Of a stretch of 64,000 nucleotides of DNA, positions 1,011-44,000 are shown in pieces; the first letter of the stretch is position 1; each line of letters opens with the position of its first letter. A program made the position numbers and the translations under genes. This DNA is from a virus. The notes beneath the pieces were generated by a model that worked only from the letters and a program-made list of their open reading frames with translations, searched no databases and was not told the DNA's origin. The DNA lies in the IMG/VR virus record IMGVR_UViG_3300035034_000127, positions 1 to 64,000 of that record. One strand, written 5' to 3'.

Positions 1011-1284
1011 AAATCTTAATCCAAATCCTTTTGATGTGTTAGGACTACGCAAAGTGGGGTTCGCTGAGCCCCACTTTGAGTACGTTAACGTTCCTATGAT
1101 TTACAACCTAGAAAGAAGTCTTGCTGAATGGATCTCTAAAAACTTAAAACACAAGTTTTATGTAGGACGTACTGTTGTTCTTGATCACGATAACAAAATT
1201 GTGCAAGTTGTAACTGTTGGGTTTGAAGAATCAAAAGATGCAAGTTATTTCATGTTAGCATGTCCTTATCTAAAATATAAATAA
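1003..1284 (+). CDS. Conserved-type small phage protein, unknown function
   Basis: A 93-residue protein starting at the ATG at 1003, which overlaps the upstream stop (ATGATTAA), so translation is probably coupled to the VWA gene. An in-frame extension back to 862 lies inside the upstream gene and is not used. The product is soluble-looking, with no membrane segment, and begins with an Asn-rich stretch (MIKNLNPNPFDVLG). The C-terminal half (VGRTVVLDHDNKIVQVVTVG) reads like a small beta-sheet fold. I recognise no catalytic motif. The late promoter for the following gene lies at its 3' end. Confidence 0.7.
   Translation: MIKNLNPNPFDVLGLRKVGFAEPHFEYVNVPMIYNLERSLAEWISKNLKHKFYVGRTVVLDHDNKIVQVVTVGFEESKDASYFMLACPYLKYK
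1276..1283 (+). promoter_or_regulatory. T4-type late promoter TATAAATA
   Basis: An exact match to the T4 late -10 element, ending 38 bases before the TTG start at 1321. The predicted transcription start is near 1289. A 7-base segment at 1263-1269 could pair with 1306-1312 across the promoter, a weak version of the hairpins seen at 2446 and 3898. Confidence 0.6.
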
Positions 1285-1307
1285 ATAAAGTACGCACATA
1301 ACATTAT

Positions 1308-1546: not shown

Positions 1547-2146
1547 ATGCTAAAACACGTAGGTCGTATGGCCAACAATAAAAGAAAAGTAGTAGTTGCT
1601 TATAAGGTAGTACCAGACGATGAGCATAACTGTATCGTAATTACTACTGAGAACTTAATGGCCGAAGAACACGATGCCCTTATTAAGTTAGTAGAAAGTG
1701 CAGCGGGACAACAAGCTGAAGATCTAGCAACAGTAATGTCCCGCACTCCTTTGCCAGATGGACGGAATATGCTAGCATCGTTTCATCACACAGGTAAGAT
1801 GGTTAAAGTACCAACTAACACCGTGCAGATGACACCTACTGCAAATGACCACATCATGTTAGATGAGCTTAACGATCTCATTGCATCGCAGCGCGGAGTT
1901 ACGCTAAGAGAATTAGCAATGTTAAATCCTTCTAAGGCAGATAGAAAAGATAATGTCGTGGCACCAACTAATGACGCAATGTCATTGGATGCCCCTGCTG
2001 TACTAACAGACGAGCAACTAGCTACTCAATATCGATCGCAGGCTAATGCAATGTACAAAGAAGCAAAGCGACTAAGAGAACAAGCTGAAGAGCTAGTGCC
2101 AACAAAGAAAAAAGTAGCCCCAAAGGCAACAAAAGCTCGTGCATGA
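1547..2146 (+). CDS. Conserved-type phage protein, unknown function
   Basis: 199 residues. The start ATG at 1547 is preceded by AAGGAG at good spacing. The N-terminal half is a mixed alpha/beta domain (RKVVVAYKVVPDDEHNCIVI, then DALIKLVESAAGQQAEDL and a TPLPDGRNMLASFHHTG segment). The C-terminal part is helical and charged (YRSQANAMYKEAKRLREQ), ending in a Lys/Ala-rich tail that may be flexible or nucleic-acid contacting. No catalytic motif is seen. It reads as part of a small late operon with the genes on either side and overlaps the next start by 8 bases. Confidence 0.7.
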   Translation: MLKHVGRMANNKRKVVVAYKVVPDDEHNCIVITTENLMAEEHDALIKLVESAAGQQAEDLATVMSRTPLPDGRNMLASFHHTGKMVKVPTNTVQMTPTANDHIMLDELNDLIASQRGVTLRELAMLNPSKADRKDNVVAPTNDAMSLDAPAVLTDEQLATQYRSQANAMYKEAKRLREQAEELVPTKKKVAPKATKARA

Positions 2147-2441
2147 TAAGCTACCTCCAGAAGTAATAGAACACTGGCCTGAAATATTTAAAGATGTTGA
2201 AATAAAAGCAGTTCCTATTGAATATATCAGCAGTGTTATAGTAACGTTTGATGACGGGAAAATATGGGAAATAGAATTAGATAAAGAAAATAGTCCGTTA
2301 GAAGCTCTTGACAAAACGCTTGATTCTTTTTTTGATGAATACGACGAATATATTGAATCAGTTGATTTTAGATTAGATACAGAACAGGTTATAAAAGACA
2401 TTAAAGCCCGCACAAAACAGTTCCTCAAAAAGAGAAAGTAA
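2139..2441 (+). CDS. Small acidic phage protein, unknown function
   Basis: 100 residues, starting at an ATG that overlaps the end of the previous gene (translational coupling). The sequence is strongly acidic in the middle (LDSFFDEYDEYIESVDF) and ends in a basic tail (ARTKQFLKKRK). The segment VIVTFDDGKIWEIEL suggests a short beta-hairpin. I do not recognise the family. It is the last gene before the fibre gene, and read-through from it would enter the hairpin at 2446-2498. Confidence 0.65.
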   Translation: MHDKLPPEVIEHWPEIFKDVEIKAVPIEYISSVIVTFDDGKIWEIELDKENSPLEALDKTLDSFFDEYDEYIESVDFRLDTEQVIKDIKARTKQFLKKRK

Positions 2442-2445
2442 AGTC

Positions 2446-2498
2446 CTCTTAAGATATCTTATACTCTGCATAAATACGTGTATAGCATATCTTAGGAG
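2446..2498 (+). promoter_or_regulatory. Hairpin with late promoter in its loop; sequesters fibre-gene RBS
   Basis: The left arm (2446-2466) and right arm (2478-2498) are complementary at 19 of 21 positions, counting two G-T wobbles, with mismatches at the 13th and 20th pairs from the outside. The 11-base loop (2467-2477) holds a late promoter, CATAAATA, at 2469-2476. The right arm ends in AGGAG (2494-2498), the ribosome binding site for the ATG at 2507. RNA read through from upstream would hide the site. RNA started from the late promoter (predicted near 2482) lacks the left arm and exposes it. The same design is known for T4 genes e and soc. Confidence 0.75.
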
Positions 2499-2506
2499 TT
2501 TTTATA

Positions 2507-3886
2507 ATGGCCCTACGTTTACGACGCGGCACCGAAGCACAACGATTATCAATAACGCCAGAAGAAGGCGAATTGATATACACCACAGATGAAAAAGCTT
2601 TATGGATAGGTGATAGTGACTCTACTCAAGGCGGTACACTAGTTACTGGCACTGGTGGTTCATCTCGACTAGACCAACTTTTTGACGTTGATAGTGCGTC
2701 ATTTGTAAACGGTGGTGTACTAAGTTATAGCAATGGCTTCTGGAGTAGTACGCTGCTTCCACTTGCACAATTAGCTGATGTTGAGCTAACTAGCCTTGCT
2801 GACAATCAAATTTTAATGTGGAACGAATCTGCAGAACAGTGGAGTGGCTCGTTTGTGACTCTATCTCAGCTGGCCGACGTCAACCTAGGCGCAGTTGCCG
2901 AAGGTGATATACTAGTATACGATGCAGGTACACTTAAATGGATATCTTCTAACGGGGACAGTTTAATAGGGTTGAATCAATTATCTAATGTAGATCTTGG
3001 CTCAGTTACCGACGGCGATTTATTAGGATATGATTCAGATACAAACCGATGGACTGCAACCACATTCAATGCTGCTGGACTAGTACCAGGCAATAGCTAT
3101 AACATAGGTCTGACAGCAGATGATGACTCACCGCTTGTTGACTCTGCAACTAAGACACACTACGGCAGCTTCTACGGAGGACTGTACTCCGATGATGGAC
3201 TAGTGCTAATAAACAGTAATACTGGAATTGCATCTACTTCTGCTGGTGATACTCTGATAGACTTTACTACCGGTGAATTCACAGGTACACTAACAGGAGA
3301 TGTTGACGGTGATGTAACAGGCAATGTATTTGGTAGTGACTCTTCTCTATTAGTAGACGGTGTCAACAGTGAGCTAACAGGTCTAGTAACAGGCGATGTT
3401 TCGACATCTTTCCTAGAAGTTAGCAAAGACAATACTATTGCAGATCAGGCTGCAATAGTATCATTTAACGGAATATCAGGAACGTACATTCCGTTTGTTG
3501 AAGTTAATAGTACAGCAGGTACTATCGTAGCTCCAGTTGATCAGATTGCAGGAGCCGGCGTTGGTGGCTATCGAATTAATACTACTATCTCAGGCACAAA
3601 TAAAACAATAACCGCTTTAATTAGTACACTAGCGTCTGATGCAGATACTAGCACTGTTAATCCTAAAGCAATCACTCAACTAGCAGTTGGAGGTAATAAC
3701 AGCCTTTCTTTCTTTAACTTTAACGGAAACGGAATATTCAGTGTACCTACTGCAATTAAGACCGGAGTATTTGTTGATGCTACAGACAGAGATGCCGCAG
3801 TTATCACTCCAGAAGCAGGAACTATTGTATTAACCGGAACAACATTCCAGGGATATAACGGTACTAATTGGGTCGACTTAAACTAA
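2507..3886 (+). CDS. Tail fibre / receptor-binding type structural protein with Mtd-like N-terminus
   Basis: 459 residues. The N-terminus (LRLRRGTEAQRLSITPEEG, then GELIYTTDEKALWIGD) matches the short domain found at the start of phage fibre proteins of the Mtd type. Residues about 55-190 contain four imperfect repeats of about 40 residues with the pattern LxQLxDVxL...GDxLxYD...W. Next come Gly/Asp-rich repeats (GDVDGDVTGNVFG, GLVTGDV) typical of fibre shafts. The C-terminus (RDAAVITPEAGTIV...GYNGTNWVDLN) resembles fibre tips. It is a virion surface protein by inference. It has its own late promoter inside an RBS-sequestering hairpin, so it should be made only late. It is separated from the main fibre block at 23952-32024. 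Confidence 0.8.
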   Translation: MALRLRRGTEAQRLSITPEEGELIYTTDEKALWIGDSDSTQGGTLVTGTGGSSRLDQLFDVDSASFVNGGVLSYSNGFWSSTLLPLAQLADVELTSLADNQILMWNESAEQWSGSFVTLSQLADVNLGAVAEGDILVYDAGTLKWISSNGDSLIGLNQLSNVDLGSVTDGDLLGYDSDTNRWTATTFNAAGLVPGNSYNIGLTADDDSPLVDSATKTHYGSFYGGLYSDDGLVLINSNTGIASTSAGDTLIDFTTGEFTGTLTGDVDGDVTGNVFGSDSSLLVDGVNSELTGLVTGDVSTSFLEVSKDNTIADQAAIVSFNGISGTYIPFVEVNSTAGTIVAPVDQIAGAGVGGYRINTTISGTNKTITALISTLASDADTSTVNPKAITQLAVGGNNSLSFFNFNGNGIFSVPTAIKTGVFVDATDRDAAVITPEAGTIVLTGTTFQGYNGTNWVDLN

Positions 3887-3897
3887 TACCAAAGTTT

Positions 3898-3954
3898 CAT
3901 TAATGCTACTCCTTACTAATATAAATAAGATTATTAAAGGATATAGCATTAATG
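3898..3954 (+). promoter_or_regulatory. Second hairpin with late promoter in its loop; sequesters RBS and start codon
   Basis: Arms 3898-3908 (CATTAATGCTA) and 3944-3954 (TAGCATTAATG) are perfectly complementary over 11 bases. The right arm includes the ATG at 3952. Further in, TCCTT (3910-3914) pairs with AAGGA (3937-3941), the Shine-Dalgarno sequence, and a short AT-rich inner stem follows. The loop region holds an exact TATAAATA late promoter at 3920-3927, predicted start near 3933. Only late transcripts would lack the left arm. This is the same arrangement as at 2446-2498 but a different sequence, which argues against coincidence. Confidence 0.72.
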
Positions 3955-4758
3955 ATAAAAGGTATAAACAACACTCCGTATTTTAATCTTGAATCTCACG
4001 TTGATATGTCAACGTTTGAAAATCTTCAACCAGAGATAATCAGAGGGATCTCTGAAGCAAGGCACTGTGCCAAAGAAGGTACATGGATGAGGCCGGGCTT
4101 TGACCAGAGCCAAGGAAGTTATAAGTGGCACTGGAAACCTATATTCCAGGCTCTAGACGAATATCTTGCACTACCAGACAACAACCCTATTAAGCAAGGA
4201 GGGTGGGATCTGTACTGCAATATCAAAGACCACGAAACACGTAATAAGTTTACTCGATACCTCAAATTAGCACTAGGTGCATACGATCCTTATACTTACT
4301 ATTTCTTATGGGAAGAGGGTTCGTGGGACGACAGAACTGCACTTCGTCAGCTTACTCCAGAAGCACAATACTTTCCTAACGTAGTTAATTGGGTAGAAAG
4401 TATGATCACTAATAATATATTTGAACATGTGGGCAGAGTAATTTTCTTTGTATGTGAGCACGGAGGTTATCCTTTTGAACATCGTGACCTCGATGGCAAT
4501 AAAGGAATGGATCAAACATATAGCCCTCATCGTAACGAGTTTATTCACATACGTCCTAACACTAAGAAAGCGTTTTACCTTTGGGATCCTGAGAAGAAAA
4601 ATAAGGTATACATAAACGCACAAGCCGCATGGTGGAATGACCAAGACTGGCACGGCGGCGAAATGATTATGGAACAGAGTTATGGTCTAAGAATTGACGG
4701 AAAGTTCACCCAAGAGTTTAGAACAAAGCTGGGTTTATCGCACTTGGAGAATTACTAA
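3952..4758 (+). CDS. Putative 2-oxoglutarate/Fe(II)-type oxygenase (HxD...H)
   Basis: 268 residues. The start ATG lies in the right arm of the upstream hairpin. The C-terminal half carries a likely double-stranded beta-helix iron site: H177-x-D179 (in FEHRD), a distal H234 (NDQDWHGG) and R247 (YGLRIDG) as candidate 2-oxoglutarate-binding arginine. The arrangement resembles aspartyl/asparaginyl hydroxylase-like and phage oxygenase families. The first 150 residues are an aromatic-rich extension I cannot assign. It begins a run of three oxygenase-like genes on this strand, the next starting directly after its stop. The substrate is unknown. The iron site is seen; the fold is inferred. Confidence 0.6.
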   Translation: MIKGINNTPYFNLESHVDMSTFENLQPEIIRGISEARHCAKEGTWMRPGFDQSQGSYKWHWKPIFQALDEYLALPDNNPIKQGGWDLYCNIKDHETRNKFTRYLKLALGAYDPYTYYFLWEEGSWDDRTALRQLTPEAQYFPNVVNWVESMITNNIFEHVGRVIFFVCEHGGYPFEHRDLDGNKGMDQTYSPHRNEFIHIRPNTKKAFYLWDPEKKNKVYINAQAAWWNDQDWHGGEMIMEQSYGLRIDGKFTQEFRTKLGLSHLENY

Positions 4759-5304
4759 TTGAAGTATGTAGGAAACTTTATAGACAAAGTGCCAGACGGC
4801 CTAATAGAAACACTGCTTACTGAAGACGGTGAAATTACTCCCGTTTACCAGCCAGACAAGTGGCAGGGTAGTCCTGAAATTGAAGCTGCTCTCAAACAAG
4901 TCGAAGATGCAGGATATCCTGCGCTAGACTACTACTTTCATCAGTACACTGATAATACAAAATGCATGCAGTCGTTCGTCGACGATCTCAAGTGGTTAAA
5001 ACTTGACGGCGTTGTGCCTAGAAGGTTTGATCGTCACCATTGGTGGATTGTTAAATATAATCCTGGAGATATGCAGCCTATGCATGTTGATCCGCATGTT
5101 CGCGACGCAAAAGAGTGTTTGCGTTATACTATGATGCTAACTGACTTTGCTGAAGGGCACATACTAACGCACGACGATTTTATGCTAACTGATTACAAAG
5201 CAGGCGATTTATTTTTATGGGAGGACTACTATTGTTATCATGGCGCAGTTAACATTGGATACACCCCCCGCATATCTTTACAAGTGAGCTTCTATAACAA
5301 ATGA
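4759..5304 (+). CDS. Putative 2-oxoglutarate/Fe(II)-dependent oxygenase
   Basis: 181 residues, starting at TTG immediately after the previous stop, with GGAG 10 bases upstream. All four expected residues are present: H109-x-D111 (MHVDPH), H161 (YHGAVNIGYTPR) and R171 exactly 10 residues later. This is the classic spacing for iron ligands and the 2-oxoglutarate salt bridge. It is paralogous to the next gene (both begin MKY.GN and share a DFMLTDYKAGD / KLLTDFIAGD segment). The length fits a minimal oxygenase domain. Hydroxylation of a phage or host protein, glycan or nucleotide is possible; no substrate can be read. It overlaps the next gene by 4 bases. Confidence 0.72.
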   Translation: MKYVGNFIDKVPDGLIETLLTEDGEITPVYQPDKWQGSPEIEAALKQVEDAGYPALDYYFHQYTDNTKCMQSFVDDLKWLKLDGVVPRRFDRHHWWIVKYNPGDMQPMHVDPHVRDAKECLRYTMMLTDFAEGHILTHDDFMLTDYKAGDLFLWEDYYCYHGAVNIGYTPRISLQVSFYNK

Positions 5305-5882
5305 AATATATCGGAAACTGCAAGGAATGGATTCAACCCTGGTGGATCGAAAGAATATTAAGCACCGACGGAGATATCTCGCCGCTGCACCAACCACAAA
5401 ATCAAAACGGCGAGCTGCCTGAACAGCAGGAACTTTATAAAAACTTCTGTAGCGCTGGGTTCGACAAACGAAAGTTTTACGTAAATATGTATACTCAGAA
5501 TAAGACTAAAGATATTTTAGACTTTAAAGTTGAGGCGCCGGAACTTATTGACATGACTGGAAAAGTTTGGAAGTGGTGGTTTATTAAAACTATGCCTGGT
5601 CAATTGTCTCATTGGCATTTTGATCCTCACACAGTGTATTATAAAGATTCAGAGAGGTACTGGATTGCGTTACACGACTACGAACCTGGACAGATATTTA
5701 CGTGGAAAGGTGGGAAACTATTAACTGATTTTATTGCAGGCGATATTTTTAAATTTGACAAGCCGCACATGATGCATGGTACGGCTAATATAAGTATGAA
5801 TCCCAGATACAGTTTTCAGTGCACTGTGCACAAGCCCGAGAAGGTCAGTCTATATAACAAGAAGTATTATACTATAGATTAA
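5301..5882 (+). CDS. Putative 2-oxoglutarate/Fe(II)-dependent oxygenase (paralogue)
   Basis: 193 residues, starting at an ATG that overlaps the upstream stop (ATGA). The iron/2-oxoglutarate signature is intact: H106-x-D108 (HWHFDPH), H159 (MMHGTANISMNPR) and R169, again 10 residues on. It is a tandem duplicate of the preceding gene, with the same N-terminal pattern, but its C-terminus is extended and Lys/Tyr-rich. Its stop codon overlaps the stop of the convergent gene on the other strand (shared TTAA at 5879-5882). Function beyond the family is unknown. Confidence 0.72.
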   Translation: MKYIGNCKEWIQPWWIERILSTDGDISPLHQPQNQNGELPEQQELYKNFCSAGFDKRKFYVNMYTQNKTKDILDFKVEAPELIDMTGKVWKWWFIKTMPGQLSHWHFDPHTVYYKDSERYWIALHDYEPGQIFTWKGGKLLTDFIAGDIFKFDKPHMMHGTANISMNPRYSFQCTVHKPEKVSLYNKKYYTID

Positions 5883-6409
5883 GAATAAGCTAAAAAATTA
5901 TACTGATACTTAGGAACCAACCCTACATTAGCTCCTGCATGCCAAGCACGGTAATCGTTCCATTCATAGATATTACCGTTTGCTTGGTTGTAGAAACATT
6001 CGTTCTCAACTATGCTAATATGCCCAACTGCTGGTTCGCCTATAAAACAAACAAATCGTCGTAGTTTTCCAAGTTTAAGATATTCTTCTTCGTTGTAGTC
6101 AATGTCGTAATGCCACGGAGCAGTGTAACCTGGATCAACGCGACTAATCCACGATCTAATGTGAGTAACGCCTATAATATTCTCAAACTGTTTTTCGACA
6201 TTGTAGCCATAGTCAGTTGCGTAATAGTTAGTCCACTTTATAGAATCTTGATTATACCCTGCTGCATCCCACATATTAAATAATCTTTCGTATTTTAATC
6301 CAGTAAGAACTGTTCGGTCAAGTATAATTTCTTTACCTGGTAGTTCCGAAATTTTGTTTATTATTGAGCCCCAGCCAGGATCATAATTTGTTACGTATCT
6401 ACAAGTCAT
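5879..6409 (-). CDS. Putative 2-oxoglutarate/Fe(II) oxygenase with Arg-to-Lys change
   Basis: 176 residues. The motif H100-x-D102 (PWHYDID) and H157 (AWHAGANVGLVPK) match the two preceding genes. The residue 10 positions after the distal His is K167, not Arg, so the 2-oxoglutarate salt bridge would be made by Lys or the co-substrate site has changed. It is encoded convergently to its relatives, suggesting inversion or separate acquisition. A GGA-type ribosome binding site lies ahead of the start. A CGTAAATA element at 6439-6446 on this strand is a weak late-promoter candidate. Function is unknown. Confidence 0.65.
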   Translation of the reverse strand: MTCRYVTNYDPGWGSIINKISELPGKEIILDRTVLTGLKYERLFNMWDAAGYNQDSIKWTNYYATDYGYNVEKQFENIIGVTHIRSWISRVDPGYTAPWHYDIDYNEEEYLKLGKLRRFVCFIGEPAVGHISIVENECFYNQANGNIYEWNDYRAWHAGANVGLVPKYQYNFLAYS

Positions 6410-6472
6410 AAATTTCCATATCGTCTAGTGTCTATTAGTATTTACGATAATTAATAGTAATAGAGGAATATC

Positions 6473-7168
6473 ATGGAATACTACTATAATCAAAAGTTAA
6501 ACGAGCCGCCGTGGCGTAACAACCTCGTATATACTAGTCTTATTAATAAAGATCATACTATTTTTTGTCAATGGTTTCATAACGATTCAGACTATCATAA
6601 GGGCCAAAACGAAGTCATAGACCAATGCTTAATGGATGAAAAATGGAACAGAGAAGTAAAGTATCTTTCGATTATGCAGCAAGAGTACCCACATCTAGTT
6701 CCTGAAGTAATTAGCATAGATCACAAAGAAAGAAAGGTCCTTCTTAAAATTGACGGTCCAGATTTATGGCAACGTAGTTTAGCTCAAGACGAATGCTCAT
6801 TTGATAAGATACTGCCTAATTGGGAATCCCAAATGCTAGAGATTGTACAGGCACACAAGGACCTAGGATTTTACAAGTTTTCGATGCATCCAAACAGTTA
6901 TTTTATCGTAGACGGGCAACTGAAAAGCATTAACTATTTTTTTGTGTACGCAGCGTCTGAGAAGGTTGTACGCATCAAAGACTTCATTAGCCACATTAGC
7001 CACAACCGTAGAACAGATTTAATAGCATATTCAGAAAAACTAGGCATAGACTGGCAGGAAGAAACACCGTTAACTAAAATACAGCAGCTAGCGTTTGACA
7101 GTTTTCGTAGTAACTACCCTAATGAATTTATTGATGCTGCCCAGGAGATATACCAGTGTACGAAGTAG
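6473..7168 (+). CDS. Kinase-fold-like protein, probable pseudokinase
   Basis: 231 residues; ATG preceded by AGAGGAA. The layout resembles small aminoglycoside/lipopolysaccharide kinase-type domains: an N-lobe with REVKYLSIMQQ (candidate helix with Glu61), a hinge-like KVLLKIDGPDLWQ, a helix ending LGFYKF, then a catalytic-loop-like segment SMHPNSYFIVDGQLKSINYFF. The Asp expected before HP is Ser137, the Asn position is Ser142, and the DFG-type Asp is Asn154. If the alignment holds, it cannot transfer phosphate in the usual way. It is paralogous to the minus-strand gene at 7700-8407, which has the same loop. It overlaps the next gene by 13 bases. Confidence 0.5.
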   Translation: MEYYYNQKLNEPPWRNNLVYTSLINKDHTIFCQWFHNDSDYHKGQNEVIDQCLMDEKWNREVKYLSIMQQEYPHLVPEVISIDHKERKVLLKIDGPDLWQRSLAQDECSFDKILPNWESQMLEIVQAHKDLGFYKFSMHPNSYFIVDGQLKSINYFFVYAASEKVVRIKDFISHISHNRRTDLIAYSEKLGIDWQEETPLTKIQQLAFDSFRSNYPNEFIDAAQEIYQCTK

Positions 7169-7713
7169 TTCAGTGGTCCTCCAAACTTGATCTAGCTGAA
7201 TTTTATAAAGAAGCTGATACTAGGGGATTTGTAAACAACGCTAGTCAAAAAGTTATGATCGATTGTTTTGCTAACGAACGTAAGTGGAATGCGTGGATTT
7301 TGTATAAAGACAGTAAAGCAATTGGTTCTGTTGCTGCCCATAGTTTTGACGACGTTATGGGACAAGACAGTTATCGTATATTAACAAGAGTATGCACATT
7401 TGGCGAAGCAAGGAAAGCAAAAGGTCTAACAACCGCAAAGAGATTATGCGGTGAGCATCAAAATCTCACAGACCAGTTTCTTCTGCCTAAGTGCATAGAA
7501 TGGGCTGGTCGAGAAAACTTATACGCAACATCAAATGCCAACACCGCAGCGAGTCAGCGTCTAGTACATTCTATTTATTTTCCTACTTTAGAAAAAATCG
7601 GAGTAGTAACTAGGATAAAAAACGTTCACTATCGCCATACTGACCAAACAGTATGGCAAATTAATGTAGACGAGTTTGAGGAGAACCTAGCTAAGTATCC
7701 TAGGTGGGTTTAA
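7156..7713 (+). CDS. GNAT-like protein, tentative
   Basis: 185 residues, starting at GTG 7156 with AGGAG 8 bases upstream, inside the end of the previous gene. The order of elements fits a GNAT acyltransferase: an N-terminal strand-helix (LDLAEFYKEADTRGF), central strands (WNAWILYKDSKAIGSVAAH, then YRILTRVCTF), a helix and a C-terminal strand region (ENLYATSNANTAASQRLVHS) resembling the part where GNATs have Asn and a following helix. The acetyl-CoA loop (Q/RxxGxG/A) is not clear. It sits between two paralogous kinase-like genes. Its 3' end overlaps the convergent gene by 14 bases. Confidence 0.45.
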   Translation: MYEVVQWSSKLDLAEFYKEADTRGFVNNASQKVMIDCFANERKWNAWILYKDSKAIGSVAAHSFDDVMGQDSYRILTRVCTFGEARKAKGLTTAKRLCGEHQNLTDQFLLPKCIEWAGRENLYATSNANTAASQRLVHSIYFPTLEKIGVVTRIKNVHYRHTDQTVWQINVDEFEENLAKYPRWV

Positions 7714-8407
7714 AAATCTTATCATACATATTAGACAGCACTTCGTTTGGCCATTCTATATGTGTAGAAATTGAACGCTTACAGAACTTTTCTAAGTCTA
7801 GTTTGTCTTCGTCAATTGCTTCGTCAAATCGGTGTCCTGAGTTTGTACCCATTAATCCCTTAATATCTTTAAGGTACATGTACGGAAACTCTTTGCCCGC
7901 AGTTGCATAAAAGTCAAACGTCTTAAGAACGCCGTTACTTATGAAATAACAATGCGGGTATAAACTAACTTTATAATATCCTGAATCTATAATATCCTGT
8001 AATATTCTTAACATCTGCTCTTCCCAGTTTGGTAGAACGTCGACTATGTTTCTTCCAGAATAAATGATATGGTTAAGCGTTTCGCCGCCCCATTCGATAA
8101 ATATCTTCTTAGTGTTATAATCTATTTCGACAATATTTGGTGCCCACAGCTTATCTTGAAATAGCATTAAGTATTTTACTTCTCGATAAAAAACGTAATC
8201 AACTAATTCTTTAGTATAGTCTGGTCGCTCAGGTAACCATTGTGCTAGGTCGGTAGTCTGGTATGCATTTGTGTGATCAAAGTGCATACATAGTACATCA
8301 TTTTCTTTATTTGCTAAAGGAGTATAAACCATATTAGTTCCGGCCTTCTCCATATCATACGACTTGTACTTATATACAGGATCCCATGTTGAGGTATCAA
8401 TACTCAT
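7700..8407 (-). CDS. Kinase-fold-like protein, probable pseudokinase (paralogue)
   Basis: 235 residues. It shares with the 6473-7168 product the REVKYLMLFQ helix, a VLPNWEEQMLRILQ helix and the loop KVSLYPHCYFISNGVLKTFDFYA. Here the position of the catalytic Asp is Ser148 and the Asn position is Cys153, but the DFG-type Asp is kept (D165). The two paralogues have therefore lost different parts of the kinase site. It may bind a nucleotide without phosphotransfer, or use an unusual chemistry. It overlaps the upstream minus-strand gene by 11 bases, so the two form an operon. Confidence 0.5.
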   Translation of the reverse strand: MSIDTSTWDPVYKYKSYDMEKAGTNMVYTPLANKENDVLCMHFDHTNAYQTTDLAQWLPERPDYTKELVDYVFYREVKYLMLFQDKLWAPNIVEIDYNTKKIFIEWGGETLNHIIYSGRNIVDVLPNWEEQMLRILQDIIDSGYYKVSLYPHCYFISNGVLKTFDFYATAGKEFPYMYLKDIKGLMGTNSGHRFDEAIDEDKLDLEKFCKRSISTHIEWPNEVLSNMYDKIFKPT

Positions 8408-9068
8408 TAGTCTGTCCTAATCTAACTTCGAATTGTTTAGGTACAATTTGCAATTCATCAATGCAACTGTACTCTATAAAAAATGCTACGCCTGCTGTAG
8501 TAGTTCTAAAATTTGTTATAATGTGCCTTTTATTAGAACAATTAAGCCACGAGCTAACACTGTTGTCGAAAAGATATCGACAATTTACACCCTGCACTAA
8601 GATTTCGACTTCCACAGGATTCATCAGAGTGGCATTATTAAGTAATTTCCTAACTACTAGCTGTACTCGGTTAAACTCGCCAAATACCGCTGCTGAATGA
8701 CATATACTAGTGTCCATTAAATACCACTTCCCGTCAACGATAGACGGGTACATCTTTTTACTTTCAAGGTCTATTAAAAATGCCTCATCGCTTCGAACAG
8801 TCAAATGATATCGATCGTCGATGTCAGCGTGACGAAGATAAGACGTGCCGTTTTGCATGATAATAACTCTAGCTTCGCCTATGTTGCTAGGTAAGCTGTG
8901 CAGTGCAGTTTCAAATACAGTGCCGTTAAACTCAGGCTTTATTGCCCACGGATCATAAAAAAAATCACCAGTAGGATAATTAATTGAAATTTTAGCAGGA
9001 TCGTCGCCCATTATGTCAAGAGATTGTGCGATCGATATAGGAATAAAAAAGTTAGTAGCTGATATCAT
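8397..9068 (-). CDS. Aspartyl/asparaginyl hydroxylase-like oxygenase (HxD...H...R)
   Basis: 223 residues. H80-x-D82 (LRHADIDD), H124 (SICHSAAVFG) and R134, 10 residues later, form a complete 2-oxoglutarate/Fe(II) site of the aspartyl hydroxylase type. The iron site lies in the middle, followed by an 85-residue C-terminal extension with several Cys (VNCRYLF, LNCSNK, YSCID) that I cannot assign. The start codon is 11 bases from an AGG that forms one arm of an inverted repeat shared with the divergent gene. It is the fifth oxygenase-like gene in 5 kb. Confidence 0.65.
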   Translation of the reverse strand: MISATNFFIPISIAQSLDIMGDDPAKISINYPTGDFFYDPWAIKPEFNGTVFETALHSLPSNIGEARVIIMQNGTSYLRHADIDDRYHLTVRSDEAFLIDLESKKMYPSIVDGKWYLMDTSICHSAAVFGEFNRVQLVVRKLLNNATLMNPVEVEILVQGVNCRYLFDNSVSSWLNCSNKRHIITNFRTTTAGVAFFIEYSCIDELQIVPKQFEVRLGQTNEY

Positions 9069-32040: not shown

Positions 32041-32048
32041 TATTTATT
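32041..32048 (-). promoter_or_regulatory. Late promoter AATAAATA
   Basis: On the minus strand, overlapping the stop codon of the giant gene (32044-32046). Predicted start near 32035, just before the AGGA and the ATG at 32024. It gives the fibre genes expression independent of read-through from the 14-kb gene. Confidence 0.5.
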
Positions 32049-35000
32049 CTGGCTGCGCCGAAGTTCCTGCACGTAAGAAGTTTGCTATTGGTGTGTTAGT
32101 TGTTGCAAGAGATTCGCCGGGTTTAGCCCACGTATTTCCAACTTTTTTAACTACTGTAACTCTTACATTTTCAGCCGGTACTGTAGTTAGCACAATTTCT
32201 CCGTCCACAATTTCAAAGTCTGCAGGTATACTAATATCGCCGTCCGGACTATTTAATGCAACTGTTGCATCAAAAACCTGCGTTGCTTGCTTGCGCAATC
32301 TAGTGCCAGCTACAAATACTTCAATTTCGTTAACTGACGATATAGTAAAGCCAATTGCAAACGATCCAGTAACGCCATCTGTCGTAAAATTCTGTACAAT
32401 AGTTCTGTCTTTATACGGAATTGTTTTGTCACTGTTTTGATCGTACACTTTTGTTCCTACAGCATGCTGTTGGGCAGTGCCTGTGCCCAGCGTACCACGA
32501 CGCAATTGTCGGAGTGTGTTACCGTCTTTAACAAAATATTCAATTCTTTCTTTGTCAATAAAGATAATTCCAGGGAGATTTCTCCCTTTATCCGGCACTG
32601 CTAGGTTCGCCCCGTCTTGAACTTCGATCCTAAGATCATAACTATTTAAAGGTTGAGCAAGGGTTGTTACTGCACTGTTTAGACGCTTAAAGTGTGTTCT
32701 GTTGAGTATGTCTTTAAACTGGCGATATGCAAACGTTGACACATTTGTTGCCGCGGAGACATCTCTATTATAAACTCTCAAATCTAGCGCGTCCATTACC
32801 TGTCCAGATACTAGCTCCTCTGGTCCTCCGCTGGTTGTTGGAGTTATGAAGCTGTCACCGTCGACAATAATTTCCTCTGGGTTAATTCCTCGCGCAGACG
32901 AGTACGCAAGATTGCCACCTATCAATGCTTGGTCATAACTTTCATCATCAGGCGCTACACTACCGTCGCTAGTGGATTTTCTAATTATCAACACATCCTC
33001 GTTGACCAACGTAATTCCTAGATCAGCTAGCTCAACTACAGAAGTCGAACCGTCACCGAAGATACTTGATGTTACTGCATTTTGGTTAACCTGTTCTGCG
33101 GTTCCGTATTCTGGATCGTCTAAACGAATACCGTTCTTGTAGATGTTATAAATAACGCCATCTTCAAGAGCCTCTCTTAATTCAACAGCAGTTGTTGACC
33201 CATCTGCTACAAATACTTCATCTTCAAAGTTAGTACCATCAGTGTCCCATGTATCAGTATACCATCCTTCGGTATCCCACCCTGTTTCTATTTCAAAGCC
33301 CAGCCCGCTAACTTCTACTCCGCCATAATCAATCCCTGTCATTACCTGTGCTAGTTCACTACCTAACATTCCACTTAATGGGTTATATGCAAACTTAATT
33401 CTGTCTGCTGCTGACAACATACTTATTGGTCTGTAATACTCTATTCGTACATCAGACTGGTTAGCAGGAGGCTTAGTAAATATTATTCTTCCTTGCTGGT
33501 AAGTGTAGCCATTGGATATCTGTTGAGTGCCTGGCCCTGCTGCTACATTACCATTACCGTAGTTAAAATCTTCAGCTAATGTATCAATAGTCGGAGAGTA
33601 GGTTATATTAGTGTATGAATACTGGCTTCTCAACTGCTGCACTTCATTAACATATACTTTAACTTTTCTGTTATCAAGATCCATTGGCCATTTCAAGTTG
33701 TAGTTAATATCTACATTTGACCCTACAAAATTAGCAACTTCTGCCAGTTCTTCTATAGTGTATTGTCCAGAAGTTCTATCAAACTTAATCTTAACAGTAG
33801 GTGTACGTACAACACCGTCGCCTAGTATAGCTGTTGCAGATGCCCTAATTCCAACGTCACTCTGTGGAACATCAATTATTACAGTTGGCATATTGATATA
33901 CCCAACGCCAGGCGACGTAACTTTGATAGCAGTAATTTTGCCATAGCCGATAAATGCCTTAGCAGTGGCCTGCTTTGCAGATGCTCCTTCAAGTTTAATC
34001 TCAGGAGCAATGGTATAACCACTACCTGGGTTTTGTATCCTAACCTCAGTAACTGTGTATCCAATGTTGTCCTTCCAGTATTTCCTTGGGTAAGAGTCTG
34101 TATTAGCCCCTGCATCAATTAGTTCACCGTTACTGATAAACGCTTTGCTTGTAACAATTCGTTTAGTCAGGATGTCGTATTGTGGTGCTAAATCAAAGTC
34201 AGTAACAGCACTTTGAGTATCGTCGATACTAGTGTAGGAACTTATAAACTCTCGTACTTTAGAAGAATAAGGTTTTACTTCGTTTACATAGGCTTGATAA
34301 CTAGCTAGCTTATCGTTTTCAAAGTTTACTTTTTGATCAAGGTTACCTACATTATGCTTAACGTTGATAAACGCTGACTTAAACATCCAGTCAACTGCCG
34401 GCTGCTCAGATAGCACGTATCTAAGGCTAGCAAAGAACAACTGGTTGTATTCAACTGCTAACTCTGCAATGAATAGGTCGTCACGTATAACTTCAAAAAT
34501 TATTCTTAGTTCTTTTGCAATAACACTATCGTAAAAGAAACTGTCGTAACTTCTGCTGTCAAAGCCAACTGCATTTTTCTCAACATTATATAAGCTTTCA
34601 TTAAAGCTTATAGTTCCTGCTTGACGTCCGATAGTATCGTAATTAATCGTAAAATCTTCAGTTTCTTCGTTGGCAATCTTTTTAAGCAGTAACCAGCCAC
34701 CGCTGCTTATACTTTTAGCTTTTACTACATTGCCAATAGTGTCACGTAGGCCTCCTAGCAAGTAAGTGCCCTCGATCTCAAAATCAATGTCAGTAAACTG
34801 ATTAAACCCTTCTGCATACCAATCTCTGTAGTCCCAGAACCTGGACACGTCAAACGCTTGAATCTGCGTTCTAAACCAGTTTCTCTCAATTTCGTTCCAC
34901 GAATATATTGCCCATTTGCCATTTAGATTATCGTCATTATTTACTAACACACTGTAGCGTCTTGGCAGCAGCACTGTTGCATCACCGTAGCCACTGCCTT

Positions 35001-38000
35001 CATTTGTAATAATTGCAGTTGTAACTTGACCTAAATTGTTTATAGACAACTTAACTTCAAAGTTCTTACCGGCGCCTGCTACTTCGACTGTAGGTTCGAT
35101 CTTATACCCTCTTCCCGAAGACAGTATGTTAACTTGAATTATCTTACCATTAACGATCACCGGTTCTAGTCGTGCTGGTGTAATTTTGTTTATACTTAAA
35201 AAGTCTAGGTCAAATGTCGTGTCAACAACAATATCGTATTTACGAGTAGCAATCGAAGGTGCATCGTCCTTACTAAACAAGCGCGAAGTTTGATATTGAT
35301 CTACTACAAGATTCTTGGATAGTACTAGGTTTACACGCTCAATAAACTGCTTTAATGCTTCAGTCCTATTTACAAACATTCCCTGTCGTGGTCGATTTTG
35401 AATACCTGTGCGTTTTGCTATCGGAATAGCAGGGTTTGGCACTGGTCTGTTGTTTTCATCAAACCCAATTAAGCTATCGAACCACTTGCGTTCGATATCT
35501 GCGGTAGGCTTACTTACTCCTGATCCGTCCGACATCAACAGGTATTGTAAATGTGTATTCTGTATCTTAGTTTCTCGCGTATCATATCTAATGTTAAGTA
35601 CCACGTCATCTGATGTAACAATATTTTCAAAGTTGTTCAACACCATTCTTGAATCACTTAAGAAGCTAACAAATCTATAACCCTGCTCTCTAGGTGATCT
35701 AATTAAATTAGTAATATCAAATATACTTAGTGTGCGGTTAACAGGTACGTCACGCTTGTTCTGCACCCAGAAGTAATAGACAGTACTAAACGTTTGACTA
35801 ATATCATCATAAGTCAACCTAGCGCTATATTTTTCATCGCCGTATAACGAAGTCCCAGTAATACCTAACGAGGAGCCCGCATCTGTTGCTGATAATGCAT
35901 CCCACCGCAACGGAGTATACTGCGTTTCAACCCATTCATAAACATCTATAGAGGCCCCTTGAGCAAGAACGTTCCATACCTCCTTTTGGTACGATATGCT
36001 TCCTTGGTAAGGCCATTCAAATCTAGCAGTGTTAATATTCCACCAAACTTGTCCTACTTGCTTTTCCGCCCAGAATATGTCAACGTCAACTGTGTTGTCA
36101 CTTAGGATTCCTACGTTATACGCTGCTGGGTCTGTACCTATCTTGTAGGTAATGTCCTGCTCGGCAATACCTGCAATCTTGCCCTGAACTGGATCAATAT
36201 AATCCAAGTAAGTGATAATTTCGTTAGTACGTTTGTTATAGACAAACACACCCTGAATCTTCGAAATATCTACTGGAACAATACTTTCTCTTAATACGTT
36301 CCATGCAAACTTGCCTTTCGGCTTTCTGTAATCAACAACTACACCTTGGCCCGTAGTTGTAACCAGCGAAGGAATTCCTACGTAGACGTGATTACCGTTT
36401 GATAATAAAGTTTCACCAAATTGGCTAGTTGCACTGTCATACCTAAATCTTTCGCTAAAGACAAGTTGATCGTTTAGTGTTTCAAATATGTATACAACAC
36501 CTGAATCCAGTATAGTTTCGTTAAACCTAGTGAATCTATTGTCAATTATAGTCTCATTGTTGGTCACTAAGTCGAACGTTGTCGGAATCTTTTGATCCCC
36601 GTTCAGACTCGATATTACCAAATTATCTTGACCGTAACTCATATCGTACCCAAACTGCTCGCCTTCTTCGTTATTAGGCGGAAGCAGTGTTTGGGTCAAT
36701 ACAAACTCACTGTCAACTTGCATATAGATGTATACTTGCCCTTGATTTACTTTTGCAGAATCATCAAGAGAAGCACTGATAGCAAAAGACATACCGTCTG
36801 GTCGCATGCTAATTTTGTATGCCCAGTTAGTTGAGTTTTGCAATTCCGGAGCATTTATTATTTGAGATAACAAAAATTTATTGTCTGTTTCTCTATAAAT
36901 TAATACTCGAGTGTCGTTAACCGTGCTATCAGAACCTGTAATAGTAGCGGTAGTTACAATTACCTGGCCGTTTGAACTAATATCATATGCCTTACTGAAG
37001 TCTACTAACACATTCGGAGTATTACTGGATTCAAACACTTCCTCGTTGTATGCTGTAAATCCGGTAACGTTTGGCAAAAATCCCACATAGTCTATTAGGT
37101 TGGATAGTTGCTTCCAGTCTGTTGTGACAAAACCAGCACCGGTTGATATGTTAGTAACAGCGCTATAGAATTTATCATTATAAAAAACAATAGAACCCTC
37201 TGCATAACCATAGCTGTTATTCCATTCTCCTCTGTAGTTTGAATCTTTTCCTTGCTTCCAACTGATGTTAGCCCAAAATATTGAATCTTTAATCCTACTT
37301 TCTACTTCGGTTTGATCTTTATTAGCAACATAGTAATCGTCTTCGAAGGTAACTATATCTCCTTTTATGTAAGTGCCCGGTGCATAATTTCCCTTGAAGT
37401 TTTCGCCCGCCAGTGCGCCATGCCTAAAGATTTCAATGCCGCCTACTAACTCTTGTTGGTCACCATTGCCTATACTAGATACAAACAAAGTATAATAGTT
37501 GCCTACTTGCCTAATTTCTACATCTCTGCCAAACTGCCTATCTTCCATTCCGTATTCTGACACAATAGTACGCTGATAGCTGTAGGTGCCGCCAGTTAGT
37601 CTTCGGTATATTGCTACAGCACCTTCGTTTACTGGTCCAGCTGTTCCGAAGTTGTCTGCTTCTATATGGTATATTTGAACGTAATCCTTGTTTAGACTGA
37701 AGGGCGGATTAGGTACTCGGCCCGCTCCCTGTGCTATATTTTCTGTATAGAACCAATATTCTTCGCCAGTTATTGGAATAATTTCATTCCACTTTCTGCT
37801 ATCTGCAAAAATTTCGTCTGCTTCAAATACTATTAACTTACCTATTAGGTCATTACCTACACAGATATCATTATCGGAATCTTCAACGACACCAATAATT
37901 CGATCAACATCTGCTTGACCTCTTATAGCAGTGTTGCGGTTTCTTTTAACATTGTAACGGCCTATGTTGTTTAGCTGGTCCCATGTTCCGGTTATGTTTT

Positions 38001-41000
38001 TTACATAGACTCTGACTTGGTTAAAGTTTCGTTGTACCCATGTAACTTCGGCACTGCTAGTGGTTATTCCGGTAATTGCAAGTCCACCTTGGCCATTACG
38101 CGGCATCTGTAAATCTTCTAAAACATCGCCTATTTGAGGTTGAAACACAAATCCCTGTGCGTCAAACCTAGTAAAATTAAAGTCAATATAACCATCCCAC
38201 ATGTCTACTATTGTTTGTAATTTGTTGAATGTTGAATAGCCTCCAGTTAGCCCGCTAGGAGCAAAGTTAATAATTCGCTCGTTAGATTCGAATAGGCTAA
38301 GTTGAAGTTGATCACCGGATACTAGCGTATCACTGAATACTTTACCTGTCCTAACTAACCATTGACTGCTGGGTACACTGACTTCGGGGCCAACCTGCCC
38401 ATCAGCCGAAGTTAAATCACCAGTAAAGGATAGTTGAGCAACAAAACTAGCTTGATTTCGATCATCAAAATCATTGCCTATAACGCCTGCTGTTAGCTGT
38501 ATATTGTAGTAATCGTTGACCTCACGCGTCTCGTTCTCTATCCTGACATCGGCATAAACTAATCCCTTACCTGCATCATAATAAACACCATTATTAGAAT
38601 AATCAGTAGGGGTTTCAATGTACCAAAATCCTGTTACTGCATCATTAGTACTAACTGTATCTTCTTCAGTGTAAACGCCAATTAAATCCTGATTGTCTAT
38701 AAACAGCTGGCCAGATGTTTCAAATGTACCGTTTGATTCTTTTAGGTAAATGATGACTCCGTCTCTACTGGTGCTAACATAATAAACAGTTGCTTGGCCG
38801 GTGTCAGTAGTTACTCTGTCGTTTACTGACGGCAGTGCAGTATATAACTCAACATAAAAGACATGGTCTATCTTTTCCTTAATAATATGCTCTTGGTTCA
38901 AAAAGCTAGAAGAGATTTCCGGTATAAGTCCGTCAAATGGCTCGTAAAAATCCAGTGTAGGATAAGAGTAACTGCGAGCATTCCAGAACAAGTTAACTTT
39001 ATCGCCAGCTGTTGTTCCTTGGTACATTTCTTTAGGCGCACGTACTAATATGTGATTAGTAATATTATTTGCCAGTTGCGAATCGCCTGCTATTATCAGT
39101 GCAGCAAGTTGGTCATTATCATCAAACGAGCCTATAATGTTGTTGTACGAGCTAAAGGTCGAGAACGGCTGAGTGGAAATTTGAGGAAAAATTGTTCTGT
39201 TGGCTCTCCACAAGCTTTCTCTAAACTTAACAATTTGATTTTTTGTGTAAGTAGCGTCTGGGTCAAACAGCCCTTGAAACCTAGTTTTAACGCCAGATGC
39301 CTGAGGTAATCCGGCGATTAAATATTCACCGTCTGGCGACACACTTACTGAAGACGCAAACCCGTTAGCAAAGGAGGTCATTAGTCCTTGCTGGGCAAAG
39401 CTTATTTCCTGATCTAGTTGCACATTAAAACTTTCTGACGACCGTCTATAGTAGTATACTTTTCCGTTTTCTACTTCTGGAGCCGTTACAAACACGTTAT
39501 TGTTATCAGCAGTAACCAATACCTCGTTACCGTATTTGTGTTCAATACCTTCTTCTTGAACAGGATTAGTAAGTGCCTGCTCGTTAGTATATACGCTGGA
39601 GTTATTTAGAACAGCCCAATCGCCATTGTAATTATCAATCCATGCTGTTTGGTCTTGGTATAGTGTATCTTGTACAACATCCTGTAGTTCTAAAAGATTG
39701 TTTAGTCTAACTGAACGCAGCAAGGTTAACTGAAAATTTTCATCAGCAAATGTTTCAAATGCTGCATCGGTTGGTACACGAATGTTAATAACGTTTAACT
39801 TAATCAGGTCAATACTATCAACTTCGTAGAATCCATTAACTCCTAATGTTCGAGTGTCTCTTACTCCTATAATATCGCCAACTAAAATGCGATTAGTTGT
39901 GTATCGATCCAACGTCAACTCTCGTAAGGAGTCACCAAACTTGTTAGTTTCCTTATTATCAAGTAATTTACTAACCTTTATCCCAGTTGTTACGTGCTGA
40001 TAAACATCCCATGGTCGGTCAAGTATTTCGGTAATCCAGATGTATTCACCTAGTGCAACGTCATCTACATTGCCATTTCTAAGATCTTCTGTAGAGCCAG
40101 CAACAAAGGTTACGTCGTTTTCGTCTACGTAGCCAGCAGTTCTCACATACTCGTTAACTAACGGCTTAGTAAAGAACGGTGCTCCTGTATAGTTAGCAGG
40201 CTTATCATACAGCTCAAAAGATTTTATTCTGTAGACTTTTTCCAAATTACTTAGAGGAATGTCATCTGTTAATTCAATAGTCTGCGGAGAAATCCGTATT
40301 TGGTCTTGTTTCAAATTGATCTCAATTTGACTTGTGTTATCAATTGCACCATACCGGCCAACTTGTATGGCCCATTCTTCAAAGAACTCTAAGCTTTCTT
40401 TACCTGCTGCACCTAGTTTTTCGAACATTTTGGACAATGCATTTTTAGTACCTTTGTCCTGAATCATGCCTTGATAAAACTTGTACTGAGAAACGTCATC
40501 AGTAATGATGTTTGCTAGGTACTGTCTCTTTTGATAGCCAGTTAAATGTTGTGCCATTCTTTGTAGCTCAGCATCAAACCCGTCTGTATCAAGATCATAA
40601 AAGTCAGTAAACTGATTAATCCTATAATCAAAGTTAGTGATTAGTTCTGCTTCTGGCTTTTTGCTCAATCTGTACCAAAGATTAGTATTAAATTCTTTTG
40701 AACCAGGTACGTTTTCTGTAGCTACGTAATAGAATTGCTTGTACTTAACCAAGCTGCCAATTTGAAAATCTTTCCAGCTGGCCCATTCAGAAATAACTGC
40801 GCCATCGTAAACAAAACCAGGAATGTTTAGTCCACCGTTCCAATCACCTGAACGGTAACCTACTATCTTAATCCGATCTCTTCTATACCCAGTTGATGGC
40901 TCATAAATTATATCGTTAAAGATGGTTCGATTGTCTATTACGACTACATGTTCTTTTTGTACTAACGCAAGTGCTACTGAATACAACCCGTCGTCGGTGT

Positions 41001-44000
41001 TTACTGTTTGTATTCCGAAACTATTTTGATCTCGTAACAAGCTACTATATTCGCTTAGCAAAGCAAGTCCATCTGCTTTTAGCAAGCTGTATGTATAAAA
41101 ATTATCAAAAATGTTGTCTACTACTGTAAAGTCTCTTTTGAAATTAACCTTGTTAGCAGCTGGTGAAATTGTAATTGCTGTGCCCGCAGCCCATCCTTGA
41201 GTAGACCAAAACAAAAACTCTTTTGCTGCTTGGTTCCAATTATTAACTGTTTCGTTTTCAACATAATTAAAATCGAACCCTAAATCTTCTAGTCTTTGAC
41301 CGTAACCTAGCAAGAAGTCTATAACTTCTTGCGACGACTCTAGTCTTTCCCCATACTGTAGAGATAGTACCTTTCTGTTATCAAAGTTCTTTTTAAAGTT
41401 TGCTGACTTCCCCCCGTTTACGGGCAGCTTAGGTAGCTTGGCTAGATTATCTGTAGAAAACAACTGAGCTGATCTAAATCGAGCAGTAGCTCTATAATAA
41501 ACATTGTTATTTTCGATTACTTGCCCTTCATAAAATTGAGTGTCGGACTGCCACGCTGACGGAATTTCTGATATTCCACCCACAGTTATATCCACACTTG
41601 AAGTGCCTACTCTTGGGGCGTAATAATCTAAGAACGGCATATCGTTATTGTAGCCGCGTAACAAGAATCCGCCTGCTGTTTTTTCAATAGCTACACCGCT
41701 GTATATTACAAAATCAACAGGAGAGCTAGTATTGAAGACTACTTCATAGTTCTCCTGAGGAACGAATACTCCTGCTTGCGTATCTGTTCTCGGAGTTGTA
41801 CTTTCCAACACTAGATTAATTTTAGACTTATCACTAAAGCCTGCTAGTTTAAATCCTAGCTGATTTCTTAATTCTAAAAACTGTAACTGATAATCGGAAT
41901 ATACAGAAAGTATATCACCTGCTACTAAATTATAAATGTAATTTACAAAGCCGCTAGTTAATACTCTGCTACTATCCTGAGAAGTATTTGGAAACACAAC
42001 ATCAGCATTAGACATAAACTTCCTAGTCTCTGAGTAAACTTGCTGTCCTACTAGGTTAGTTGTAATTCTACTAACGTCATATCCCGCTGCGAACACTTTA
42101 GCAGGTTGGTTTAACAGCATTGTAGTTACTACAGAGAATGGATATTGTGAACTTCTTCTCCACGCGGTTTCGACAGGAGATTGGTCACCAAACTTAAAAC
42201 TCTGCGTGCTTAATCTTAAAATAAAGTTCTTAACATAGCTAGACGCTAGCGGTGATTTTAACTTTCCTTTTTGGTCCGACGGAATAAAATTTACCAAACC
42301 AGGTCTTGCAAATTTGGCAAGAAATATAATGTTCTTGCCAGGTTCGCGTACAATACCCTGTTCAAGGTCACGCCACATGTTGAGGTTATCACCTGTGTAA
42401 GGTGCCGAACCGTAAGATTCGTTCCACCACAACGGCTTGATTCTAAATCCTAACATTTCCCAAGGATGACTATGCGGTCTGTCAGTGTCAAATGCCTGCT
42501 TATAAACAGCTCGCCAAAATCCTAGTAGGTCTTCATCTGCTAGATTATTTGCATTAGAATAGTTGTAGGTAAACTCATTGGTCCTATCATAGAAGAAATT
42601 ATCAGTGTAGTCATTGTCTACTAATTTAAGCCATTGAGTAAACTCAGGTGACAAACTTTTATTAATTTCTGCTGAGCTAAACTCCGACGGTCTAAAGTCG
42701 CCGCCGAAGAATCCGTCTACATCAATTACGTCTTCAGACCATTGTACTTTAATATTGTTAAAAATGCGTTTTTCAAAATCAAGCAACAACTCGTCTCTGA
42801 AATCTAAGTAGGCTCGAACATAGCTTCCGTCGTGGCCTCTAATAAAAGGAATGCCTACCGGATACGCATCTATTTCGACGTCGTCCTGGCCTCCCAGTAT
42901 ATTTGCCGCACTGTTTGCTATGTAAAGTGATTCAGTTAGGCCTTTAAATCTGACTGTCGATACTTGGCCCGACCCGCCTGCATCTTGATCTGCGGTTTTT
43001 GCAGCGCTCTTAGTAGTATATACAGGGCGAAACCAGCCGCGAGCAGCATTTGCGGCTGCGACATCTTGTTCGCCGTAGACCTTATATGGGCCGGAATTGG
43101 CTGGCGCTGTTGTTTGATACGTGTCGTCAATTGTTAGCTCTGGTGAAAACTTAGGGTACAGTCCTAGCTTGCTAGGGGTTGGGGCAACAAATGAACCGTC
43201 TGTAACTTCATATTCAATCAGCTCAAGAATATCACCTTCCTGCTGTCCAGCATTAACAACAACAAATCCTTGAGGATCAAATGTATAATGCTGTCCTACA
43301 GTTAATTGCTTGCCGTTTAGGTAAACCAGCACGCTGCTTGCAGAAAGAGTTTCTAGATCAAATGCATTATTTAATGCGTATAATTCTGTTCTTGAATCTA
43401 GAATCTGGTATTCTATAATATTGTTAGGTCCGTAAGCTATCATATCTGAGAAGTAAAACGGTTGTGTTTTGATCTTGTCTTTGTTAACACGCTCTAGGAT
43501 CTTGTCAACATGCCTTGAAGTGTTGCCGTCAAAACCTAGAGTGGTCGCTGTCTCTAAAAATATTCTCTTGAACTTTGCATACTCGTCGCGACTGTATCGC
43601 AACGCCTTGACAATGTTGTATTCCTTGCTAGTTGTGTGATATAATGGAAAGTTGATCGATCCCGAATGCTTTACGAATTTCTTACCAAATCTAGAAACGT
43701 CTCCTAGATCTCTTAGGTTTCCTGGGCCCGGAAACGCACCTGCAAAACTAGGAACTTCTTCAATCAACGAATCAACATGAGCTATAACTTCACCTAAAGT
43801 AAAGTCTTTGATATCCTCATTTAGAGGATTTCTTTCTAGGTTATGTGGAAACTCATAATATCCATTGTTATTTTTAACAGTTTTTGAGTCTGTTTTTATT
43901 TGTACAATATCACCGCTTAGTAGGTTCTTATCAAATTGCACGATTGCTACTTTATTAATTCTGTTAATTTTGTAGTCAACGTTAATAAGTTGGAGTTTGT

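Follow-up and report, generated by a model that had tools for sequence, protein, structure and literature searches.

What is the purpose of a hairpin that carries a T4-type late promoter motif in its loop and the Shine-Dalgarno (SD) sequence of a fibre-like gene in its 3' arm? Such a leader lies at positions 2446-2498 of the window, the 64-kb part of a 72,030-base IMG/VR virus record from which, together with fetched loci, our genome-wide counts are drawn. To our knowledge, few natural examples of a gate of this kind have been described, nearly all of them in T4 and its close relatives. Judging from computed folds and homologous leaders, we think it probable that the hairpin makes translation of the fibre-like gene depend on where its transcript originates.

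The phage and its late sigma factor

On the evidence of recognisable genes for a baseplate wedge (46158-49580, minus strand), a gp25-like wedge protein, a hub/lysozyme protein and a gp55-type late sigma factor, the source of the window is an uncultured T4-like contractile-tailed phage. Nucleotide searches with the window returned no cultured relatives and protein searches returned only distant jumbo-phage and other fibre homologues, for which we found no RNA map; the protein encoded at 1547-2146 has a distant homologue in jumbo phages including GAP32 and 121Q. In the tail region (32044-46143, minus strand) a single open frame of 4699 codons is unusually long. The 7-mer ATAAATA is found 25-37 nt 5' of the starts at 2507, 3952, 58064, 49580 (minus) and 27440 (minus), and its putative reader is encoded in the same genome:

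58064-59926, plus strand: gp55-type late sigma factor with a probable intein inside (family matches)

The gp55-like gene appears to be split by this probable in-frame intein, with sigma matches at aa 1-202 and 531-596, a weak intein N-terminal match at aa 202-272 and borders reading CVDIN...FLTGN-T. An intein within the late sigma factor could by itself delay late transcription.

Anatomy of the leader

The elements at and around the first hairpin are as follows.

1277-1287, plus strand: ATAAATAAATA before gene 1306-1545, a possible late promoter of the upstream operon with no significant hairpin (z +1.05; motif and folding)
2139-2441, plus strand: co-directional upstream gene, 100 aa, no family match, stop codon 5 nt before the hairpin (ORF list)
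2446-2466, plus strand: 5' arm of the hairpin, carried only by RNA from upstream (sequence and folding)
2469-2476, plus strand: T4-type late promoter motif CATAAATA in the hairpin loop (motif search; ATAAATA in 91 of 107 homologous leaders)
2478-2498, plus strand: 3' arm of the hairpin, SD included (sequence and folding)
2482, plus strand: predicted start of late transcription, roughly a helical turn away from the motif (from T4 geometry, PMC2988020)
2494-2498, plus strand: SD sequence AGGAG, fully paired on read-through RNA (folding)
2507-3886, plus strand: fibre-like gene, 459 aa, with an Mtd_N (major tropism determinant N-terminal) domain at aa 4-36 and short repeats (domain match)

A first-pass annotation of this DNA had described 21-base arms, 19 of them paired, around CATAAATA with AGGAG in the 3' arm, and rereading and folding bear this out. 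Base pairing joins 2446-2457 to 2487-2498 and 2459-2464 to 2480-2485, C2458/C2486 and 2465/2479 are mismatches and C2466-G2478 is a further pair, which makes 19 pairs over 21 positions (two of them G-U) in an A+T-rich stem with a 15-nt loop. For 2446-2509 the minimum free energy (MFE) is -17.8 kcal/mol, whereas shuffles average -7.5 (z -4.43) and 1 of 200 is as low. In a comparison of long with short RNA, of the kind that the same annotation had suggested, the hairpin is present when 2430-2530 is folded (-25, z -2.56), whereas RNA from 2482, the predicted late RNA, shows no significant structure (z +0.86); the SD has a computed unpaired probability of 0.00 on the long RNA, which rises to 0.46 on the short one.

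The predicted start follows from the geometry of T4 late promoters, in which an 8-bp box lies about one turn from the start (PMC2988020). RNA beginning there would, as claimed at first, be without the whole 5' arm; the start itself, however, had been placed within the loop and would instead fall three bases inside the 3' arm, most of which late RNA would retain. Three features of the gates of the T4 e/soc/I-TevI type are found here as well, namely an SD sequestered in a stable helix on upstream-derived RNA (by computed folding), a late motif in the loop from which, if T4 geometry applies, RNA would start at 2482 without the 5' arm, and a gp55-type sigma factor in the same genome. The annotation's likening of the locus to T4 e also holds up as an interpretation, in that the anatomy fits the e and I-TevI gates (PMC3014915, PMC2988022).

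A fibre role for gene 2507-3886 is suggested by its Mtd_N domain, which is present in all 18 family members scanned, and by its fibre-like repeats. Upstream of it, the product of 2139-2441 is without match in PHROG and Pfam, and the gene occurs in the same order in relatives. Since this co-directional gene ends at 2441 and the same arrangement is seen in gated relatives with a readable neighbour (a co-directional gene ending 49-141 nt 5' of the start, allowing for antisense shadow ORFs), read-through RNA into the hairpin is anatomically plausible. Apparent minus-strand neighbours look like antisense shadow ORFs, as checked for the window and L019, and upstream-gene orientation gave no signal as a predictor of gating in a test that these shadow ORFs confound. 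With the upstream stop codon only 5 nt before the 5' arm, ribosomes that terminate at 2441 would overlap the arm in part and may open it for a time.

A proposed gate on transcript origin

From this anatomy we infer promoter use, start site, read-through from upstream with its timing, and translational silencing as parts of a gate model. In it, polymerase reading through from the upstream operon would make RNA with both arms, on which the 18-19 bp hairpin would form, bury AGGAG and block ribosomes from the fibre-like gene. Late in infection, a gp55-type sigma factor would direct initiation at CATAAATA in the loop, and the resulting RNA, beginning near 2482 and lacking the 5' arm, would leave AGGAG open and be translated. 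Fibre-like protein would thus be made only from its own late promoter.

In gates of the T4 type the gated gene follows genes of the early or middle period. Timing (late or early) is the weaker part of our model and origin the firmer one, because ATAAATAAATA precedes the co-directional upstream operon in the window genome, so that read-through RNA may also be late. It is conceivable, albeit on the whole unlikely, that the upstream operon is itself late and that the hairpin serves to uncouple the dosage of the fibre-like protein from that of the upstream genes rather than to delay it. The site at 1277 ahead of the upstream gene at 1306 and a similar one in L004 are consistent with such an arrangement, but of 27 related operons 21 have no such upstream site, whereas the fibre promoter occurs almost throughout, and L008 is gated without any late site at its upstream operon. 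Absence of ATAAATA from the upstream operon in these 21 of the 27 relatives favours an earlier RNA class there.

Homologous leaders in uncultured phages

Does the gate recur? Gene order is the same around relatives of gene 1547-2146, where the fibre-like gene again follows an ATAAATA, and a profile search with the Mtd_N start yielded 107 unique upstream regions from uncultured phages, 91 of which carry ATAAATA at -75 to -15 (7.1 expected); the base just 5' of the 7-mer varies and is most often C. We defined a strong gate as a hairpin that encloses the motif, buries at least three of four SD bases and reaches -12 kcal/mol, and as controls the 30 nt before the motif were either shuffled (100 sets) or exchanged between loci. 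Among 69 non-redundant leaders (less than 80% alike, yet still related, so that counts overstate independence), 20 have a strong SD-hiding hairpin, as compared to 4.6 expected from shuffled (at most 10 in any of the 100 sets) and 6.2 from swapped sequences. Mean MFE is -10.35 for real, -7.53 for shuffled and -7.80 for swapped leaders, and none of 5000 swap permutations reached the real mean. Motif-less gene starts from the same contigs show SD-hiding folds in 15 of 220 cases (10.9 expected; Fisher p 6e-6 versus the leaders), and when all ATAAATA-led genes are folded as segments ending at the start codon with the energy threshold applied, 19 are found versus 4.8. An earlier fold test on long segments around all ATAAATA sites had given a weak contrast (39 versus 37 at >=12 pairs) since outer pairing adds noise. 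With 49 of the 69 leaders below the strong-hairpin threshold, the gate is not essential for an Mtd_N gene.

The arms themselves fall into at least six unrelated types: GATATCTT (window, L004, L008, L152, L188), GATCAG (L065, L184), those of L168, L185 and L165, and a longer GGAGATAGC group (L069, L090, others). Within groups, some compensatory changes are seen. In six leaders of the window's GATATCTT group, three pairs have changed on both sides (A-U to G-C twice, C-G to U-A once) and 82% of cells pair at register 0 as opposed to 32-53% in slid registers; in L065, L184 and L062 all cells (100%) pair at register 0 and three pairs have changed on both sides. These samples are small (6 and 3 sequences), and sequence alone was used to align their columns. 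Directly seen are the hairpin and its motif, the way the two are arranged, a gene for the sigma factor and an above-chance recurrence with changed arms; we take the recurrence of the arrangement before homologous genes to support our interpretation.

Related layouts were noted in passing. In L005 (5363), L028 (5491) and L030 (3604), ATAAATA again lies in a hairpin, with arms that differ between loci, ahead of a small gene of 95-97 aa (MSRPKP...). A variant in L031 (9892), L154 (3001) and L139 (3001) uses the promoter's downstream part CTTGTAAC, about -5 to +4, as 5' arm, which pairs with GTTACAAG over and after the SD; a late start would remove part of that arm only. Leaders of L069, L090, L104, L126 and L129 are ~15 nt longer, and past the predicted start their outer stem encloses another small hairpin.

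A second hairpin behind the fibre-like gene

The window contains another leader of the same design directly after the fibre-like gene.

3897-3955, plus strand: second hairpin, arms 3897-3921 and 3932-3955 (folding)
3952-4758, plus strand: gene under the second hairpin, 268 aa, no family match (ORF list, family searches)

Here the late motif TATAAATA (3920-3927) sits at the top of the stem and in the loop, and both the SD AAGGA (3937-3941) and the start codon (3952-3954) are paired. At -19.5 kcal/mol and z -4.98, with none of 200 shuffles as stable, this hairpin is real, and the idea that it forms a recurring design with the unrelated one before the fibre-like gene holds in the window genome. 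A His/Asp pattern suggests that the gene 3952 product is 2-oxoglutarate oxygenase-like. A run of several small genes near the fibre-like gene (4759-9068) includes one with a weak 2OG-Fe(II) oxygenase match, the others being without family match.

Is the second leader a property of the gene or of the place? No usable late motif was found before 28 other gene-3952 homologues examined, which argues that it belongs to the locus and not to gene 3952. Similar hairpins around ATAAATA occur in L019 (12532), L020 (10209) and L026 (3863) before a desaturase-like gene right after the fibre-like gene, in the slot that gene 3952 takes up in the window; the product of the one in L019 matches fatty acid desaturase. 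By such sequence comparison the second gate is tied to place rather than to gene, given that gene-3952 homologues elsewhere are without the leader and desaturase-like slot genes have a similar hairpin. In 67 of 72 relatives, the slot after the fibre-like gene is without ATAAATA.

Other readings of the hairpins

That the first hairpin is a terminator or RNA processing site of the upstream operon, with SD hiding as a side effect, seems improbable to us. It does follow directly on the upstream stop codon and is itself followed by TTTTT, but its stem is A+T-rich, its loop measures 15 nt, a terminator scan gave no match and T content after the SD is alike in gated (3.10 of 8) and other leaders (3.18 of 8); moreover, a terminator gives no reason why arms of unrelated sequence should surround a late promoter and pair with the SD. 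An intrinsic terminator, which would have a G+C-rich stem and a short loop ahead of a U run, was rejected on these grounds, the U run being present here but not conserved.

Also quite improbable, to our minds, is an RNA switch that is opened by temperature, by a phage protein or by ribosomes ending at 2441 and in which the promoter is incidental. An A+T-rich stem and an upstream stop codon 5 nt from the arm would suit such a switch, yet the arms are unrelated and no loop or stem sequence is conserved beyond promoter and SD. Nor do Rfam covariance models at gathering score find any match in the window, so a described Rfam family was rejected as well.

As for an A+T-rich leader with an almost palindromic promoter folding by mere accident, many single leaders fold no better than shuffles and the no-motif control, too, lies slightly above its shuffles (15 versus 10.9), but z values of -4.43 and -4.98 at the two hairpins, 0 of 5000 swap permutations and compensatory changes leave this explanation hardly credible.

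Relation to known systems

The gate on transcript origin that we propose would use the mechanism of T4 e, soc, 49 and I-TevI, and is as such known in kind. Its logic has been reviewed for these genes (PMC3014915) as well as for homing endonucleases, 25 and 26 (PMC2988022). The leader resembles that of T4 e (lysozyme), which has late promoters within its arms or between them, a ribosome binding site (RBS) that is hidden on early RNA reading through, and late RNA without the 5' arm; in e the structure cuts synthesis about 100-fold on long RNA (PMC3014915). T4 e, however, is a lysis rather than a structural gene, has two late motifs and is unrelated in sequence. T4 soc, 49, 25 and 26 are likewise late genes read through from other transcripts and provided with RBS-hiding structures (PMC3014915, PMC2988022), albeit not fibre-like ones, and since soc encodes a virion protein, a gated structural gene has a precedent. 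I-TevI, I-TevII, I-TevIII, segB and Aeh1 mobE share a late promoter so placed that late RNA cannot form the hairpin (PMC2988022), but these homing endonuclease leaders serve mobile genes, in contrast to the fibre-like and putative oxygenase genes described here. Among jumbo phages, the same ATAAATA 7-mer was predicted as late promoter before structural genes of CBB and noted likewise for GAP32, while the CBB paper reports no hairpin, the word being absent from its main text (PMC5259590).

As a positive control, the same scan on 100 kb of T4 recovered gene e and I-TevII and, with the 30 nt of upstream sequence used, missed soc. In T4 (NC_000866, 87219; L137) we also observed a predicted hairpin that encloses a late promoter and hides the SD of gene 9, with 0 of 100 shuffles as stable; no earlier description of it was found.

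What is new here is the breadth and the arm turnover of such gates in uncultured phages, for which we found no earlier report in the open literature, most subscription journals being outside that search. It may be, though we put this forward tentatively and with somewhat more doubt than conviction, that in a broad group of uncultured T4-like phages late promoters inside hairpins serve as a general part that is easily re-invented, that one Mtd_N family acquired or re-wrote its gates with six or more unrelated arms, and that gated leaders in the following slot can stand before cargo that has been exchanged (a putative oxygenase or fatty acid desaturase gene). The leader set represents one family in which the same gene stands under different helices or is ungated, and so allows one to test when a phage needs a block on read-through translation and how gates evolve. 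For predicting phage expression from sequence, it means that leader structure must be read jointly with promoter position.
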